Of a stretch of 27,377 nt of DNA, positions 3,561 to 22,306 are shown piece after piece. Made by a program: the position numbers and the translations under genes. Positions within the stretch are counted from its first letter, which is position 1, and the number at the start of each line of letters is the position of its first letter. The notes under the pieces were generated by a model. It was not told where the DNA came from and searched no databases. It worked only from the letters and a program-made list of their open reading frames with translations. Origin of the DNA: a virus; the IMG/VR virus record IMGVR_UViG_3300030328_003440, positions 1-27,377 of that record; one strand, given 5' to 3'.

Positions 3561-4624
3561 GCGGATTTACCAAAAACTGTATTGCCAGTTTCACCACTAT
3601 CATTATTACTAAGACTAATGCGACAATCAGAATCTAATTGCATCACAGTAGTAACATTACCACCTGAATAAAAAGTATCCCAATGCCTAAATCCTAAATT
3701 TCCACTACCATTGGCTCTAACAATATCCCAATTAGAAGTGTCGCTTGTATCTCCTGAGTTACCTATTTTAAGAGATACATATCCTCCGCTATTTGTACTA
3801 TTTAATAACATACTAAAGTCAGAAGCAGTCTGTACTGAAAGTGGAGTATTTGCATCAAATGCAGTGGTTCTTCCAATCGCTACATTACCAGAAAATATAC
3901 CTGCTAAATTAGTATCTGCACCAGCCGCAGTGACATGGATTCCTACATTTTTTGTAGTTCCTGTTGCATCGTCTGAATTAACATCAACTTTTAATCCTGT
4001 TAAATTAACAGTAGATGCAGCATTATCTGCACCTGAATCATCAAGGTCAATATGCATACCATCATAAGTAAGCGTTGAACCTGAGTCCATTGTACTAGTT
4101 TTATTTATATCAAATAAAATTGCTCTGTTTGTAGCTGAAGTATTTCCAGTAACAGTTCGAGTTAAATTCATTGATTTAGTGGTGCTACCTGCACTATGTA
4201 CTAAATCTAAATGACTACTTGGAGAGTCAGTTCCGATACCTAATTGCCCCGAAGAAGTCATAGACATCGCATAAGATCCACCTGCGTAATAATCTAATCT
4301 ATCGTTTGCGTGTGAATACCTTACTATGCCTCTTTGATTACCACCCGAATCTCCAAAAAATATATTAGAACTACTGCTTGTTCCTGATAAAATTGTTAAA
4401 CCTGAATGACCACTACCTTCAATAATTAATTCATCTGCATCTGCGTGAGCAGTGCCACTACTAGAGGCAGTTTTAATCTGAATTTTTCCTTCAATTATCT
4501 CATCGTATGTAAATGAGCCACCACCCTCTACTTTTAAATCACCTGTGATAGTAAGGTCGCCACTAATAGTGCCACCAGCTAATGCTGCATTGTCTCCTGC
4601 GGTTGATATCATTGATTTTAGCAT
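1..4624 (-). CDS. Giant repetitive phage fibre/adhesin, C-terminus beyond the window
   Basis: The minus-strand frame is open from 4624 to the left edge, giving at least 1541 residues without a stop. I chose the ATG at 4624, which has AAGGA 7 nt upstream; the ATG at 4612 is in frame but lacks this site. It overlaps the upstream stop by 7 nt. Residues about 10-60 contain a GTISGDLTITGDLKVEG-type stretch followed by DEIIEG. Residues about 60-350 are a mixed beta-rich stalk with a QLGIGTDSPSSHLDL segment typical of S74-type phage fibres. From about residue 355 to the edge there are continuous 17-22 residue repeats of the form N-[TV]-[AF]-[IV]-G-Y-x-[AS], like the YadA-type left-handed beta-roll head. 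Proteins of this kind are trimeric and bind host surfaces. A C-terminal intramolecular chaperone (peptidase S74) would be expected beyond the window; that part is inference. The gene directly follows head genes, so a head fibre is an alternative to a tail fibre. Confidence 0.85.
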   Translation of the reverse strand, partial: MLKSMISTAGDNAALAGGTISGDLTITGDLKVEGGGSFTYDEIIEGKIQIKTASSSGTAHADADELIIEGSGHSGLTILSGTSSSSNIFFGDSGGNQRGIVRYSHANDRLDYYAGGSYAMSMTSSGQLGIGTDSPSSHLDLVHSAGSTTKSMNLTRTVTGNTSATNRAILFDINKTSTMDSGSTLTYDGMHIDLDDSGADNAASTVNLTGLKVDVNSDDATGTTKNVGIHVTAAGADTNLAGIFSGNVAIGRTTAFDANTPLSVQTASDFSMLLNSTNSGGYVSLKIGNSGDTSDTSNWDIVRANGSGNLGFRHWDTFYSGGNVTTVMQLDSDCRISLSNNDSGETGNTVFGKSAFNVSGDNGSDYNVAVGELAMGTGSVSGASRNVAVGYKALEDITSGEENTALGDEAGRNITTGTYNVLIGKNAGTDLVDDNNNILIGYQAGQSSVASNTVAIGFQAMKASVTTGANGTTAIGYQALMALTSGAGNVAIGYQCGDSLTTGVQNTFIGYQTGSTVTNNNNNTYVGYNSGLQNTGEKNVAVGNHTIKNGSGAGSHNTALGSSALYGLTTGEKNIAIGVEALHDVTDGENNIAIGHNSGDAMTSSVGCILIGNNAGGAINSSDADGTIAIGYQAGLAITSGQKNVLVGYEAGLESQTGDNNTLIGYQVANNTANLLGNSNILIGYQCGGVGQWAGASNNNTIIGANAFNGAVNQSHTNTGVGFNVVKSLTTGDNNNAFGAYSLDALTTGSSNVGIGNSTGSVMTTTSDCTLVGVEAGNSMSAGQTTTNGTVAIGRSALYSLTSGAENTAIGQLALNALTTGSQNIALGTKALQEHLTGVRNVAIGAYSMGDTNAGTTSQGSNDNIFIGHVAGGGTWANAESNGNVGIGSYTMDSALDGALYNTAVGAYALSAVTQADNVVAIGNSAAYSLTTASNNVAIGTNAMKVHTTGERNIAIGTNAMDDTDAGSSSLGSVDNVFIGHNSGGGTWADAASSYNTAVGGNSLDAAMNGAGYNVAIGYGSLSALTEADYNTAVGTNSGNDLNTGSQNTLVGYDAGAQLTTGFGNVSMGVNSLLTHKTGQYNIAIGINAMYDTNSGSNAEDSDSNIFIGASSGSGTWANTKSEYNVAIGTSTMRGAMDGINGAVAVGFESLKELTTGNYNTAIGYESGKDLTTGPSNTLLGYGSGKYMNTCSGNVALGAYAGWKLGHADADTNVLVGFGAGGGGDSTDANNTAADNVAVGHKALGGSTYSDDGSAFTATNNIAIGYEALTAATTAPANTVLGNYAGHDITTAGYNTLIGYSTGAKLVTATSTNNQHNTYVGHSAGASSTGYDNVIVGSEAGDALTTGNSNVVIGRNALSTATTANDCVVIGRETGNAIAAGVAATGVVAIGSFACNDIDSTDANYTIGVGHAAAANITSGQQNMAIGYAALGNATTADYNTALGYNALNATTTGSQNVAVGVGALATHVTGIGNVAIGQGAMTNTDAGNNSNDSDYNTFVGWASGNGTWTDAKTEYNTALGGASMAGNLEGAVYNVSLGYR

Positions 4625-11465: not shown

Positions 11466-11473
11466 TGTTCACA
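11466..11473 (+). promoter_or_regulatory. Candidate operator TGTTCACA upstream of the sigma-like gene
   Basis: The octamer is the dyad TGT-TC-ACA in the context GTGTTCACAA, 29 nt upstream of the ATG of the late regulator. It is one of six exact copies, all at control points. A bound repressor here would block late expression in a lysogen. Confidence 0.55.
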
Positions 11474-11681: not shown

Positions 11682-11689
11682 TGTTCACA
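11682..11689 (+). promoter_or_regulatory. Candidate operator TGTTCACA upstream of the plus-strand cassette
   Basis: The full local context is TTGTTCACAA, the same 10 bp as in the integrase promoter at 22286-22295. It is a TTGT-TC-ACAA dyad, 64 nt before the cassette ATG, with a weaker TTTGAACAC between it and the start. This suggests the cassette answers to the same repressor as the integrase. Confidence 0.55.
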
Positions 11690-14242: not shown

Positions 14243-14527
14243 TTAAAATTTTGTACGTTGCAGCCTGGCATGCCGCTTGTTCTTTTTTTTCGATCCTTTG
14301 CCTTTTGTCCAGCCATGCAGCTGCCTGTTTCTCCAAAGCAATTTATCCCTACCCTGAAGTCTGCCAAAACAGCGTTCATGCAATTTAACATCCAGGTCAT
14401 CCCACCAGCCAAAAACAGCTTTACAGTGGACCGTATCATTTACTGGCATAGCAAAGATGCAAAGCTGATCTTCATCAGGTGAAAGAGGGCAAGTGTGAAT
14501 TGCCTGTATTTTGTCAAAAATGTTCAC
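14243..14527 (-). CDS. Unknown basic protein (94 aa), last gene of the early minus-strand block
   Basis: This 94-residue frame has an acidic N-terminal half (IHTCPLSPDEDQLCIFAMPV) followed by WWDDLDVKLHERCFGRL. The very basic C-terminus (KGKGSKKKNKRHARLQRT) probably binds nucleic acid. The first possible start is GTG at 14527, which lies inside a TGTGAACA operator and has no visible ribosome site; the next Met would be at 14449. A shorter ORF in another frame (14227-14439) covers the same DNA, but the frame chosen has better protein character. No family is recognised, and a start further upstream or a repressed mRNA is possible. Confidence 0.55.
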   Translation of the reverse strand: MNIFDKIQAIHTCPLSPDEDQLCIFAMPVNDTVHCKAVFGWWDDLDVKLHERCFGRLQGRDKLLWRNRQLHGWTKGKGSKKKNKRHARLQRTKF

Positions 14528-14528
14528 A
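14521..14528 (-). promoter_or_regulatory. Candidate operator on the start codon of the 94-aa gene
   Basis: On the minus strand the site reads TGTGAACA, and the GTG inside it is the likely start codon of the 94-aa gene. A bound protein here would sit right on the start. It also borders the ACCGACA arm of the nested inverted repeats next door. Confidence 0.5.
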
Positions 14529-14615
14529 CCGACAGTAAATATAAGTAAAGTAAGTAAAGTAAGTAAAGTAAGTGTTCACATTACTTTACCTACTTTACCT
14601 CTCTCGCGTGTCGGT
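14528..14615. repeat. Nested inverted repeats and 9-bp iterons around an operator: candidate origin or switch
   Basis: Outer arms ACCGACA (14528-14534) and TGTCGGT (14609-14615) are exact complements. Inside, AAGTAAAGT is repeated three times in tandem (14543-14551, 14552-14560, 14561-14569). Then comes GTGTTCACA (14572-14580), and then two inverted near-copies ACTTTACCT (14583-14591, 14592-14600). The 20 nt before the operator (14552-14571) and the 20 nt after it (14581-14600) are inverted repeats with only two mismatches, so the operator sits in the loop of a 20-bp hairpin. Next to the primase-helicase gene this could be a replication origin, a terminator-like structure or a regulatory site. 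Confidence 0.7.
14573..14580 (+). promoter_or_regulatory. Candidate operator TGTTCACA in a hairpin loop
   Basis: This exact copy of the octamer (context GTGTTCACAT) forms the loop of the 20-bp inverted repeat between the primase-helicase stop codon and the downstream gene. It lies 52 nt from the copy at 14521, about five helical turns. Confidence 0.5.
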
Positions 14616-16483
14616 TAAGTAAGTAAATTTTCAATATCTGTCTTGTTTTTAGCATAAATTCCGCGCTCTATTTTAATAATTCTTTCTTGCTTTATAAGCT
14701 TTTTTAGCCATGAACTTACACTTTTGCTGCTAGTAATTTGTAGTGTTTCGGCTAAACTTTCAGCCATGTCATTGTATGTAAAATTGTCACCCATTGATTT
14801 AATATTATCTAATACGCGATCCTCATCCGTATGTTCTTGCTCCCGGTACCAGAACACTTCACCTTTTGGAAGTGGCTGCCGATACTCATAAGCAAGATGC
14901 TCTTTTTCAGCATCCGACACCAATTTGATACCAAGCGCCAGGTTATGAAATTCGCTATTGGTCCTGGTCTTGGTGATCTTCATCACTTTCAATGGTTCGT
15001 GAAATGTCGATGCCAATTGTATAAGATTGTCTAGCCAAAATGAATAAAATGAACCACCAAACACCATAGATGTATCCAATGGTATTTGCTTTTCGGCCAT
15101 CTTTTTATGATGTGCTACAACCAAAATGCTTAACCGAAACTCATTTTTAATGTTTTCAATTGTACTAATAAGGTTACGAAGCTGATCATTCTTGACCGTA
15201 TCAACCTCACTACTAGTATATAGGTTGTCAATGATCAGCACTTCAAACCGATTGTTTGTGGCCATAAGATTGCCTGTGATCTTTTCGTATGCATTTTCAA
15301 ATAACTGTTTTTTATCTGCGCTAATGATTTCCAGGTTCTTTCCTAAAGTCTCACGCTTCTCTGGGTGCTTATCAAGTAATGCATTGACCATTGGTCTTAA
15401 CCTATCTGTAACCATTGCGTCCATCATCTCAAATTGCACCAAAAGCACTCGCCTGGGCCTTGGTACACGAAATGTCATAAATGGTACACCCATCGCCACA
15501 CACAGCGCAAATTGCAATGCAAATAGGCTTTTGCCCACATTTGTACCACCCGCTACACTTGTGCGTCCATTTAATAATAATATCTCATCACAGATATATT
15601 CGACCTCATCTTGGAATGTATCCATAAAATCGAACACTTTATACATTGGATCGCCACCAAAGTCTTCAGGCTTGCTTCCAAATACCTTGCACCGATCAAT
15701 AAGCGTATGTAGGTCATTTGCTGTATGACCTGCCACAAAGTAGTCCGTTAGGTCCATCTCGTCACTAAGCTCTAATATTTTGATGATAATATTTTGACGA
15801 TATAATTTTTTAGCAAGCGCCAACGCACCCTTGCGCCCACTCTCATCAGCATCATAGCAGATCACAATAGAACTAAATGTATCCAATGCGCTTATATCTT
15901 TAGGGATGCCGTTAGCACCTGAAGTGAACGTAATGGCCGGGAATCCATAACATTCTGCGCTAACGGCATCTTTTTCACCCTCACAGATAAGTAGCGTGCC
16001 TGTCGGGTTTATATCTGCTATATTAGGGTATATTTTGCATTCTGCGTCACCAAACTGCTCACCCTTGTGCCGTTTGATGTGATTTTCATTAATACGAAAC
16101 ACAAGCTGCATTTCTTCATTATTATTACGCACGCCAATCCCATAGCGTGAGTCACGTGCAGTCTCATTCCAGGGAAGTTGCAGTTTTTTTATAACTTTAT
16201 CGGAATGGTTTAAAAAATTTTCACGATGCTGCCTGTAATTAGATTTTTTAACAGCTCCGCTACTTTTTACATATAATGGCTCTCGTACAATTGGTGGCTT
16301 TATATCAGGCATTTTATCTATCTTATTATCCTCAAAATGCCATGTGTGTTGGCATCGATGACAATACGCATGGTCAGGCTCAATTTGTACAGGATAATTT
16401 GATTTTCCATCACCACACTTAGGACAACGCGCACGATTACCTACCGAATTAATATCGGTAAATATCTGCGACGGCCGGATCAA
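14615..16483 (-). CDS. Primase-helicase: zinc finger, TOPRIM and RecA-like ATPase domains
   Basis: This 622-residue replication protein is built like T7 gp4 and RepA-type phage proteins. A zinc finger at residues 20-44 (Cys20, Cys23, Cys41, Cys44) recognises template. The TOPRIM fold has EGEKD at about 168-172 and YDADESGRKG at about 210-219, the acidic metal-binding residues of primases. A RecA-like ATPase follows with Walker A AGGTNVGKS (311-319), Walker B VLIIDN (415-420) and a SILVVAHHKK sensor-like strand at about 450. The last 70 residues form a winged-helix-like domain (YNDMAESLAETLQITSSKS). It would synthesise primers and unwind DNA at the phage fork. The ATG overlaps the stop of the RecB-like gene by 4 nt. 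Confidence 0.92.
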   Translation of the reverse strand: MIRPSQIFTDINSVGNRARCPKCGDGKSNYPVQIEPDHAYCHRCQHTWHFEDNKIDKMPDIKPPIVREPLYVKSSGAVKKSNYRQHRENFLNHSDKVIKKLQLPWNETARDSRYGIGVRNNNEEMQLVFRINENHIKRHKGEQFGDAECKIYPNIADINPTGTLLICEGEKDAVSAECYGFPAITFTSGANGIPKDISALDTFSSIVICYDADESGRKGALALAKKLYRQNIIIKILELSDEMDLTDYFVAGHTANDLHTLIDRCKVFGSKPEDFGGDPMYKVFDFMDTFQDEVEYICDEILLLNGRTSVAGGTNVGKSLFALQFALCVAMGVPFMTFRVPRPRRVLLVQFEMMDAMVTDRLRPMVNALLDKHPEKRETLGKNLEIISADKKQLFENAYEKITGNLMATNNRFEVLIIDNLYTSSEVDTVKNDQLRNLISTIENIKNEFRLSILVVAHHKKMAEKQIPLDTSMVFGGSFYSFWLDNLIQLASTFHEPLKVMKITKTRTNSEFHNLALGIKLVSDAEKEHLAYEYRQPLPKGEVFWYREQEHTDEDRVLDNIKSMGDNFTYNDMAESLAETLQITSSKSVSSWLKKLIKQERIIKIERGIYAKNKTDIENLLT

Positions 16484-17133: not shown

Positions 17134-17264
17134 GCCTCATCCCTTTTCTTTAACCATGTTACTATTATATCTATTGCAGCTGGTAGCATAATAGTACATG
17201 CGCCAAACATTACTAGTGACACTGCTAGAATAAAAAGATTAGCTATCCATTCGTAAATTATCAT
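17130..17264 (-). CDS. Small membrane protein (44 aa)
   Basis: The frame begins with ATG at 17264 behind a near-perfect ribosome site (AAGGAG, 5 nt spacing). It codes for 44 residues with one clear hydrophobic span (IANLFILAVSLVMFGACTIM, about 7-26) and a charged C-terminus (WLKKRDEA). It overlaps the end of the methyltransferase gene by 26 nt, and its stop overlaps the start of the RecB-like gene (ATGA). The strong ribosome site and the flanking overlaps make it a real gene. No family is recognised. Confidence 0.75.
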   Translation of the reverse strand: MIIYEWIANLFILAVSLVMFGACTIMLPAAIDIIVTWLKKRDEA

Positions 17265-18528
17265 ATATACTCCTTGCTACTAGTTGAACTATTGGCACAC
17301 TTACTGCATTACCACATTGTTTATATCTTTGTGTATCTGAAATGTCTACCACCTTACCATCAAGATTGCCTTTAGATGTCCACTTATCAGGAAATCCTTG
17401 CAAGCGCTCACACTCTATTGGTGTAAGACGGCGAATAGAATTACTTATTATTTTAATACCATTTCTTTTTGCTTTACTACCTGAATTTTGTGTTAGAGTA
17501 GGCGTTGCACCATCTTCTCTTATTTTACTATTGTAATCATCTAAGATTTTTATCTTATTTGGGTGTATCGTTGCCTGCTCCATACCTGTATCCAAGGTCT
17601 GCGTGGCATAGCCTTTGCTTGTGGCTTCTTTGACCTTAATAATTGGTGAATTTTGACCTGTGTTTTCACCTCTTGATGGTATGGTTGGCGCAATGCCACT
17701 ATCATTATAAATTCGCTTAGTCTGTGTCTTGCTATTTTTATAATAATCAATTGCAACCCCATGTTGGTCTTGACCTATAAGTGTAAACATTGGCTCACCA
17801 TCTTCTTTCATTCTACGCCCGTTTTGATTTTTATTTGGCCTATTAGTATCTATTACAGCTTTCACTTGTCCATCTCCAGGCAAGGCACATCCCCGCCTAT
17901 CTTGAGTGTGCTGCACGCCTTGTCCTTGTCCTTTGGCTTGCGCTCTTGAAAGTTGCTCTTCATAATTCCGTTTATCATCTTCTGTGATAGGAAATACTTT
18001 GGCTCTACTTCCTCTTCCAATATGTCCAACAATGTATATCCGCTCTCTATTTTGGGGTAAAACCCACTTAGTATTAAGCAGTTGGCACTCAACGGTATAA
18101 CCAAGGTCGGTAAGAACTCCGTAGATGACAGCAAATGTGCGTCCATTGTCGTGACTAAGTAGGCCTTTAACATTTTCGAGTACAAAATGGTCGATTGGCT
18201 TTCCAGTTTCGATGTAATGTCGTAAAAGCCGTGCAATTTCAAAAAATAAAGTACCTCTGGTGTCATCAAATCCTTTTCGCTTTCCAGCCTGGCTAAATGC
18301 TTGGCATGGAAATCCTCCACAAAGGATGTCAATGTGATCTGGTAAATCTCGCTCTGGTCGAATAGCGCTAATGTCTCCGAGTTCTTTTGCATTAGGAAAT
18401 CTGTGCTTGTAGACCGCACTTGCGTATTTGTCTATTTCTGAAAAACCTACCCATTCAAATTCATATCCTGCTTGCTCAAATCCCTTGTGAAATCCACCAA
18501 TCCCACTAAATAGATCAAGCAAACGCAT
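17239..18528 (-). CDS. DNA (cytosine-5) methyltransferase
   Basis: This 429-residue protein has all the core motifs of the family. Motif I DLFSGIGGF (5-13) binds S-adenosylmethionine, motif IV GGFPCQAFS holds the catalytic Cys75, motif VI ENV is at 118-120, motif VIII is QNRERIYIVG (about 159-168), and QCGNAVSVP near residue 408 is motif X. The target-recognition stretch (about 175-375) carries repeated A-P-T-[IL] / T-L-type segments (APTIPSRGEN, TPTLTQNSG, MFTLIGQDQHG), seen in other phage C5 enzymes. No partner endonuclease is adjacent, so it is an orphan enzyme, presumably protecting phage DNA from host restriction. Recognition sequence is not predictable from here. Confidence 0.95.
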   Translation of the reverse strand: MRLLDLFSGIGGFHKGFEQAGYEFEWVGFSEIDKYASAVYKHRFPNAKELGDISAIRPERDLPDHIDILCGGFPCQAFSQAGKRKGFDDTRGTLFFEIARLLRHYIETGKPIDHFVLENVKGLLSHDNGRTFAVIYGVLTDLGYTVECQLLNTKWVLPQNRERIYIVGHIGRGSRAKVFPITEDDKRNYEEQLSRAQAKGQGQGVQHTQDRRGCALPGDGQVKAVIDTNRPNKNQNGRRMKEDGEPMFTLIGQDQHGVAIDYYKNSKTQTKRIYNDSGIAPTIPSRGENTGQNSPIIKVKEATSKGYATQTLDTGMEQATIHPNKIKILDDYNSKIREDGATPTLTQNSGSKAKRNGIKIISNSIRRLTPIECERLQGFPDKWTSKGNLDGKVVDISDTQRYKQCGNAVSVPIVQLVARSIYDNLRMDS

Positions 18529-22021: not shown

Positions 22022-22228
22022 TTATTCATGCCAAATGATGCTTGTTTCATTAACGTCAAAAACTCTTGCAATATTATCTTTGTGTCTAAATTGGAAGGTT
22101 CTTTCGCCTTTAAGCATCATCGTAAGGAGTGCAGGACTTATGCCTATTAATGCACTGAGTCTTCTCTGTGAAATTTTATTTACAGATAATAACTCGCTGA
22201 ATTTGACTTTAGTATGTGTAGTTTCCAT
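22022..22228 (-). CDS. Small Cro/CI-type (XRE family) repressor
   Basis: This 68-residue DNA-binding protein consists of little more than a helix-turn-helix. Residues about 17-45 (ISQRRLSALIGISPALLTMM with KGER) match the XRE pattern Q-x-x-L-[SA]-x-x-x-[GI]-x-S-x-x-x-[LI]-x-x-x-[LM]-x-G-x-R. The following helix is KDNIARVFDV. There is no C-terminal dimerisation or protease domain, so it resembles Cro or a short repressor. It lies at the end of the early block and diverges from the integrase across a 101-bp gap with two TGTTCACA/TGTGAACA sites. It is the natural candidate to bind these sites; that link is inference. Confidence 0.82.
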   Translation of the reverse strand: METTHTKVKFSELLSVNKISQRRLSALIGISPALLTMMLKGERTFQFRHKDNIARVFDVNETSIIWHE

Positions 22229-22247: not shown

Positions 22248-22256
22248 TGTGAACAC
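22248..22256 (-). promoter_or_regulatory. Candidate operator TGTGAACAC upstream of the repressor gene
   Basis: The minus-strand reading is GTGTTCACA, the same 9-mer as at 14572 and 11465. It lies 20 nt before the repressor ATG at 22228, where a bound repressor could autoregulate. The second site of this gap is 39 bp away. Confidence 0.55.
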
Positions 22257-22278: not shown

Positions 22279-22306
22279 TTGAATTTTGTTCACAAATGTG
22301 TAATAT
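22279..22306 (+). promoter_or_regulatory. Candidate integrase promoter with operator in its spacer
   Basis: TTGAAT (22279-22284), a 16-nt spacer and TAATAT (22301-22306), with TGTG just before the -10, form a plausible sigma-70 promoter. The spacer contains TTGTTCACAA (22286-22295). The start codon of the integrase is 24 nt past the -10, with GAGAGGA between. A bound repressor would block RNA polymerase directly. The 101-bp gap 22229-22329 is otherwise non-coding, also with a TATAAT at 22234. Confidence 0.6.

Follow-up and report, generated by a model that had tools for sequence, protein, structure and literature searches.

Putative replication origin of paired 9-bp iteron arrays that covary with the predicted winged helix of a primase-helicase in uncultured marine phages

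The winged helix of phage P4 alpha binds the repeats of the origin before unwinding and priming, and in RSF1010 iteron binding, a RepA-type helicase and a primase are carried on three proteins (RepC, RepA and RepB', respectively) which act at an iteron oriV (PMC4234260). In pRN1 the origin is positioned just 3' of the replication gene, with variable origin sequence between flanking conserved DNA, and ORF904 has a C-terminal winged helix (PMC4234260). In the Vibrio satellite PLE the RepA DNA-binding domain and the origin covary and form a cognate module, with repeated swaps of specificity (PMC8263062).

We analysed a linear IMG/VR marine virus record of 27,377 bp from an uncultured phage, the whole of which is referred to as the window, and which has no DNA similarity to cultured phages. 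Immediately 3' of its minus-strand primase-helicase gene, and ahead of a small minus-strand gene, there is a compact element with direct and inverted 9-bp repeats, an operator-like sequence in the loop between them and a pair of outer arms (Table 1). All of these parts had been described in the original prediction, along with a stem matching at 18 of 20 pairs, and all are present in the DNA; the stem (14552-14571 with 14581-14600) has 18 Watson-Crick pairs, and the remaining two would form G-U pairs in minus-strand RNA. Both the repeats and the stem exceed chance, with a period-9 score of 23 compared with ≤10.5 in 1000 dinucleotide shuffles, and a best 20-bp stem of 18 pairs compared with ≤16 in 200 shuffles.

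Table 1. Positions of the repeats, operator-like sites and genes in the window.
Feature	Position	Strand	Basis or remark
Primase-helicase, 622 aa, proposed initiator	14615-16483	-	Pfam, PHROGs, AlphaFold2, Foldseek
Predicted winged-helix domain, residues ~551-612	14648-14833	-	AlphaFold2, Foldseek, Pfam winged-helix families
Predicted recognition helix, residues 586-598	14690-14728	-	Residues 586-588 and 591 track iteron sequence
Three AAGTAAAGT copies	14543-14551, 14552-14560, 14561-14569	+	Sequence
Three tandem 9-bp iterons, canonical phase GTAAAGTAA	14545-14553, 14554-14562, 14563-14571	+	Sequence
Two inverted near-copies AGGTAAAGT	14583-14591, 14592-14600	-	Sequence
Inverted iterons, canonical phase GTAAAGTAA, GTAAAGTAG	14581-14589, 14590-14598 (respectively)	-	Sequence; copies in nearly all relatives
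Operator-like TGTTCACA, in loop between both arrays	14573-14580	+	Sequence
Second operator-like TGTTCACA	14521-14528	+	Same orientation, 52 bp from loop copy
Left outer arm ACCGACA	14528-14534	+	Sequence
Right outer arm TGTCGGT	14609-14615	+	Touches primase-helicase stop codon (14615-14617)
Two inverted TGTTCACA, between regulator and integrase genes	22248-22255, 22287-22294	-, +	Sequence
Two TGTTCACA, ends of divergent intergenic region before terminase operon	11466-11473, 11682-11689
Cro/C1-type HTH regulator, 68 aa, candidate TGTTCACA binder	22022-22228	-	Pfam HTH_26; conserved in relatives
Small gene following array	14243-14527	-	GTG start uncertain; four invariant cysteines
Long repetitive tail-fibre-like protein, 1541 aa	2-4624	-	Runs off record
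Apparent DNA cytosine methyltransferase gene	17239-18528	-	Early operon; assigned by eye

The primase-helicase matches TOPRIM (Toprim_2/3/4) and AAA_25 in Pfam and primase/helicase in PHROGs, and is arranged in the order zinc motif, TOPRIM, RecA/RepA-like helicase and predicted C-terminal winged helix, with zinc-motif residues C20, C23, C41, H42 and C44 invariant in A1. Using Foldseek, an AlphaFold2 model (mean pLDDT 75) matched T7 gp4 and Twinkle, with the helicase part matching RSF1010 RepA (1g8y, 1nlf), while no D5-type (SF3) helicase family was matched in Pfam. The C-terminal ~75 residues were modelled as helix-strand-helix-helix-strand-strand with pLDDT mostly 81-92, and their Foldseek neighbours were the DpnI winged helix, Rok, Z-alpha, Fur and MecI, none of these below E = 0.001. 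Many members of the primase-helicase family also match winged-helix Pfam families, weakly. The model and these matches support a winged helix at the C-terminus, and together with the Pfam results indicate that a TOPRIM primase and a C-terminal winged helix are combined in one chain.

The nearest working analogue appears to be P4 alpha/crr, in which a TOPRIM-type primase, a helicase and a repeat-binding C-terminal winged helix are likewise found in one protein. However, the P4 alpha helicase is of the SF3 type, whereas that of the window is AAA_25/RepA and resembles T7 gp4/Twinkle, which places it in another helicase superfamily, and the repeats here are abutting 9-bp iterons that form two opposed arms immediately past the 3' end of the gene. 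RSF1010 resembles the phage in joining iteron binding, a RepA-type helicase and a primase at an iteron origin, and its RepA is matched by the phage helicase, but three separate proteins are used there as against one chain here, and the repeat length and primase type also differ. With pRN1 the phage shares the position of the proposed origin, a C-terminal winged helix and variable origin sequence inside conserved flanks, but pRN1 has an SF3 helicase, an archaeo-eukaryotic primase and a required 100-nt stem-loop origin without iterons. In PLE the DNA-binding domain and the origin also covary and swap, but this involves two replicon types exchanged by replacement of the whole domain, ~30-bp iterons and a RepA that is no primase-helicase, whereas the many specificities of the phage group differ by few residues. 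T7 gp4 and Twinkle share the overall fold and have a zinc motif, TOPRIM and RecA-like helicase in the same order, and to our knowledge T7 gp4 has no origin-binding winged helix. Protein matches to cultured phages were weak and partial, the best being to the shorter Rizwana gene 69 (542 aa), and no comparable intergenic array was present at the Rizwana primase-helicase region inspected. The same combination of features was not found in a literature search that took in few subscription papers.

Relatives of the window were gathered using primase-helicase queries, with the repeats playing no part in the selection, and this gave ~95 distinct contigs, some of them incomplete, on which the trees and identities partly rest. 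Conservation of the iterons is strong, with multiple direct repeats in a constant position close to the proposed initiator gene; a period-9 array was detected within 220 bp past the primase-helicase stop codon at 93 of the 94 testable loci, compared with 13 of 1880 random control segments, and no period besides 9 recurs in these 220-bp segments apart from its harmonic, 18. At nearly all of the loci direct units are followed by a spacer and then by inverted units. The iterons vary widely between phages but are mostly uniform inside one phage, and share one common phase. Units in other phages include GTGAAGTAA, GTAAAAAAG, GTAAAATAT, GTAGAATAA, GGAGAATAT and GCGGAATAT, among others, with GCAGAATAT, GAAGAATAT, GAGGAATAA, GTGGAATAA and GGAGACTTT as further examples, and at some loci (e.g. 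L098 and L091) the two arms differ by one or two bases. Between the arms of the L083-L109 class (GGAGAAT-type), after the third iteron, there is a conserved purine-rich block, TTTATAGAGGAGAGAGAGAG, which may serve in melting or as a promoter and is absent from the clade of the window.

The same primase-helicase/iteron layout was also observed in a Candidatus Marinimicrobia single-cell genome, on a phage-like contig (L111; CACLYL010000043.1) carrying terminase and portal-like genes, and this provides a weak lead to Candidatus Marinimicrobia as a host of the phage group. On inspection, the genes of distant primase-helicases (29-33% identity, from same-phylum genomes) are also followed on their 3' side by short repeats; these differ between loci L187, L188, L189, L190, L192 and L197, with 9-bp repeats at L187 and L197 and, for example, CCGACAAGTTTCGCACCCTG at L192.

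Using 65 de-duplicated sequences, we compared distances between recognition helices with distances between iterons while controlling for the rest of the protein, and these were correlated (partial Mantel r = 0.48; 0/5000 permutations). In a blind scan of 9-residue windows over all 622 residues the best window was 583-591, and the next best independent one was the wing, 599-607. Single columns 309 and 325, which are far from the winged helix, also scored high in the whole-protein scan; this probably reflects deep clade splits, and a tree-based test removed most of the signal from distant columns. In that test, which used a tree built on residues 1-555 and ranked 449 columns, the 20 branches with a change in iteron bases 2-4 included 14 on which residue 587 also changed, and this residue was the best of all columns (p = 1.8e-7, runner-up p = 4e-3), a p-value weakened by the grouping of bases 2-4 having been picked after the pattern was seen. 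With the whole unit taken as one character the best column was 586, at p = 6.6e-4, which is not significant after correction.

The correspondence between residues and bases takes the form of a short list. With NA or KA at residues 587-588, bases 2-4 are GAG (18/19); with TA or TG they are CGG or AGG (6/7), with AA they are CAG or AAG (5/5), with QT they are TGG (2/2), with NS they are TGA (3/3), and with AS, KS, RS or RT they are TAA (26/28). Where residues 587-588 are equal, bases 2-4 are shared by 85% of pairs with ≥90% identity elsewhere and by 71% of pairs with <50%, while for unequal residues these values are 16% and 10%, respectively, and so residues 587-588 appear largely to predict bases 2-4 whatever the relatedness. 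Likewise, Gly at 591 and T at base 1 occur together in two separate lineages, L097 and L136, each with N591G and a base-1 G-to-T change as a single-patch natural swap in otherwise near-identical phages. That the repeats and the residues which would read them change together across ~95 relatives points to a natural recognition code.

Comparison of close phages suggests how such changes may arise. In close pairs with unlike iterons (e.g. L009/L010, L095/L144 and L123/L125) identity is mostly 92-100% on both sides but drops to ~65-90% between about -140 and +120 relative to the stop codon, whereas close pairs with identical iterons show no such drop. The divergent tract is ~270 bp and spans the recognition helix and the iterons. 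Its changes are both synonymous and amino-acid-replacing, a pattern better explained by recombinational import than by mutations acquired one at a time. Since the recognition-helix codons are ~100 bp from the first iteron, the binding domain and its sites can be exchanged as one short tract, and origin specificity appears to move as a single ~270-bp cassette. The sequence of the small gene stays constant among close phages with different iterons. This gene, which encodes a protein of 66-94 aa with a conserved basic RDKL.WRNR tail, occupies the corresponding position in almost every relative, and matched no Pfam family and a single PHROG, weakly.

We consider that the element is very probably a replication origin, and that the primase-helicase, whose gene is immediately upstream, recognises it with its C-terminal winged helix. 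An iteron-type origin beside the primase-helicase gene had been suggested when the repeats were first noticed, and the suggestion gains support from their conservation and their covariation with the predicted winged helix. Enzyme monomers would occupy the 9-bp iterons, oriented oppositely on the two arms, and helicase rings could then form, open the duplex and start bidirectional priming. In the clade of the window, TGTTCACA between the arms may additionally let a Cro/C1-type regulator hinder assembly of the initiator in lysogeny. GC skew in the window follows gene orientation and is uninformative on the origin.

TGTTCACA occurs six times in the window compared with 1.3 expected, and none of 100 shuffles reached six. 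The copy at 14521-14528 abuts the left outer arm beside the start of the small gene, and its 52-bp spacing from the loop copy was held in the nine relatives compared. Either TGTTCACA or TGTTTACA is present between the arms in most phages of clade 1 (the clade of the window) and absent from other clades; within clade 1, L002, L007 and L020 have neither between the arms and L003 retains only the central copy. The two terminase-side sites keep a spacing of ~200-230 bp in those clade-1 relatives whose contigs include the region. The 68-aa regulator may bind TGTTCACA. At the regulator/integrase region TGTTCACA was found in the window, L008, L009 and L010 and not in L003, L004, L005 or L007, although the recognition helix of the regulator, ISPALLTMM, is identical in all clade-1 phages examined. 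No homologue of the regulator was found in the Marinimicrobia single-cell genome, which shows little. Two of the six TGTTCACA sites are one mismatch from the DnaA box TTATNCACA; we do not favour a DnaA-box reading, since the 8-mer is constant and the bases on either side of it are not. In a related group (L015-L017) TGTTCGCA surrounds the arrays in place of TGTTCACA, with sites in L015 at 11887, 11951, 12003 and 14266, and L015 has a different candidate regulator at 4321-4581.

Gating of replication by the regulator through the central TGTTCACA is plausible as a subclade feature. It is possible, if rather doubtful, that the TGTTCACA sites instead serve the promoter of the small four-cysteine gene, given that one site is next to the start of this gene and that both flank a promoter-like pair on the minus strand, TTTACT-18-TATATT (14567-14538). 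However, this match is at chance level, as were the promoter scans, and several relatives with the sites intact do not conserve the -10-like hexamer.

That the iterons are bound and that they act as an origin are two different claims, and the support from covariation is for binding alone; the primase-helicase could thus bind the arrays for autoregulation, copy control or packaging/segregation, with the origin elsewhere. Some origins do have a second, distant repeat cluster, and P4 crr-like or regulatory binding away from the site of initiation is conceivable. We consider this unlikely, as the sites are at the 3' end of the gene, where there is no promoter of its operon, no other cluster of AAGTAAAGT was found within the window, and the precedents of P4 and pRN1 put such binding at the origin.

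A functional hairpin, either as a cruciform that presents or hides the operator, as had been raised in the original prediction, or as an RNA structure which controls transcription or translation of the small gene, is very unlikely, although the predicted folds are stable (z = -8.0 as minus-strand RNA; z = -4.3 as plus-strand DNA). Pairing was counted on 19 clade-1 sequences, 16 of them distinct. In the outer arms 98% of cells are paired, and there is one compensatory change, G-C to C-G, in three of the 16 distinct sequences (L002/L003/L013), which is probably a single event. By contrast, the inner stem is broken in many relatives at iteron bases 1, 6 and 7 without compensation, its sole two-sided changes being those of the coordinated change at iteron base 3, and in other clades the arrays are some 40-90 bp apart. 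Compensatory changes, which the original prediction had looked to as evidence for the stem, were seen once in the outer arms and not at these inner positions, and the 20-bp hairpin is for the most part a consequence of the iterons being inverted. These counts rule out the hairpin or cruciform as a conserved object: only the outer arms stay paired, and there is no stem-loop conserved despite sequence change of the kind found in pRN1. Furthermore, RNA pairing fails to explain covariation with a DNA-binding helix, and Rfam and tRNA scans returned nothing. In L021 (~830-910) a natural deletion has removed the right outer arm and the second operator-like site and joined the array to the small gene, with the iterons kept.

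Finally, although period 9 equals three codons and the sequence is A+T-rich, the array is almost certainly not a functionless low-complexity or coding repeat, as it lies between genes at a constant place and covaries with the protein, and a coding repeat is ruled out by stops in most relatives.

Returning to the origin and its proposed initiator, it is quite possible, and we suggest this tentatively, that these phages represent a class of single-chain TOPRIM-RepA/SF4-winged-helix initiators with an exchangeable ~270-bp cassette that sets origin specificity, numerous mutually distinct replication types among co-circulating phages, a readable residue-to-base code and, in one clade, a central lysogeny operator. 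How an origin and its initiator change jointly without loss of replication is a standing question, and a neighbouring helix and sites that move as one tract would solve the joint change in one step. The ~20 different iteron sequences found in nature, together with the recognition helices that match them, offer a test bed for DNA recognition by winged helices, and the set can be used to probe whether replication types isolate co-infecting phages from each other or from satellites. For a large group of uncultured marine phages, the likely origin is hereby marked from sequence alone.
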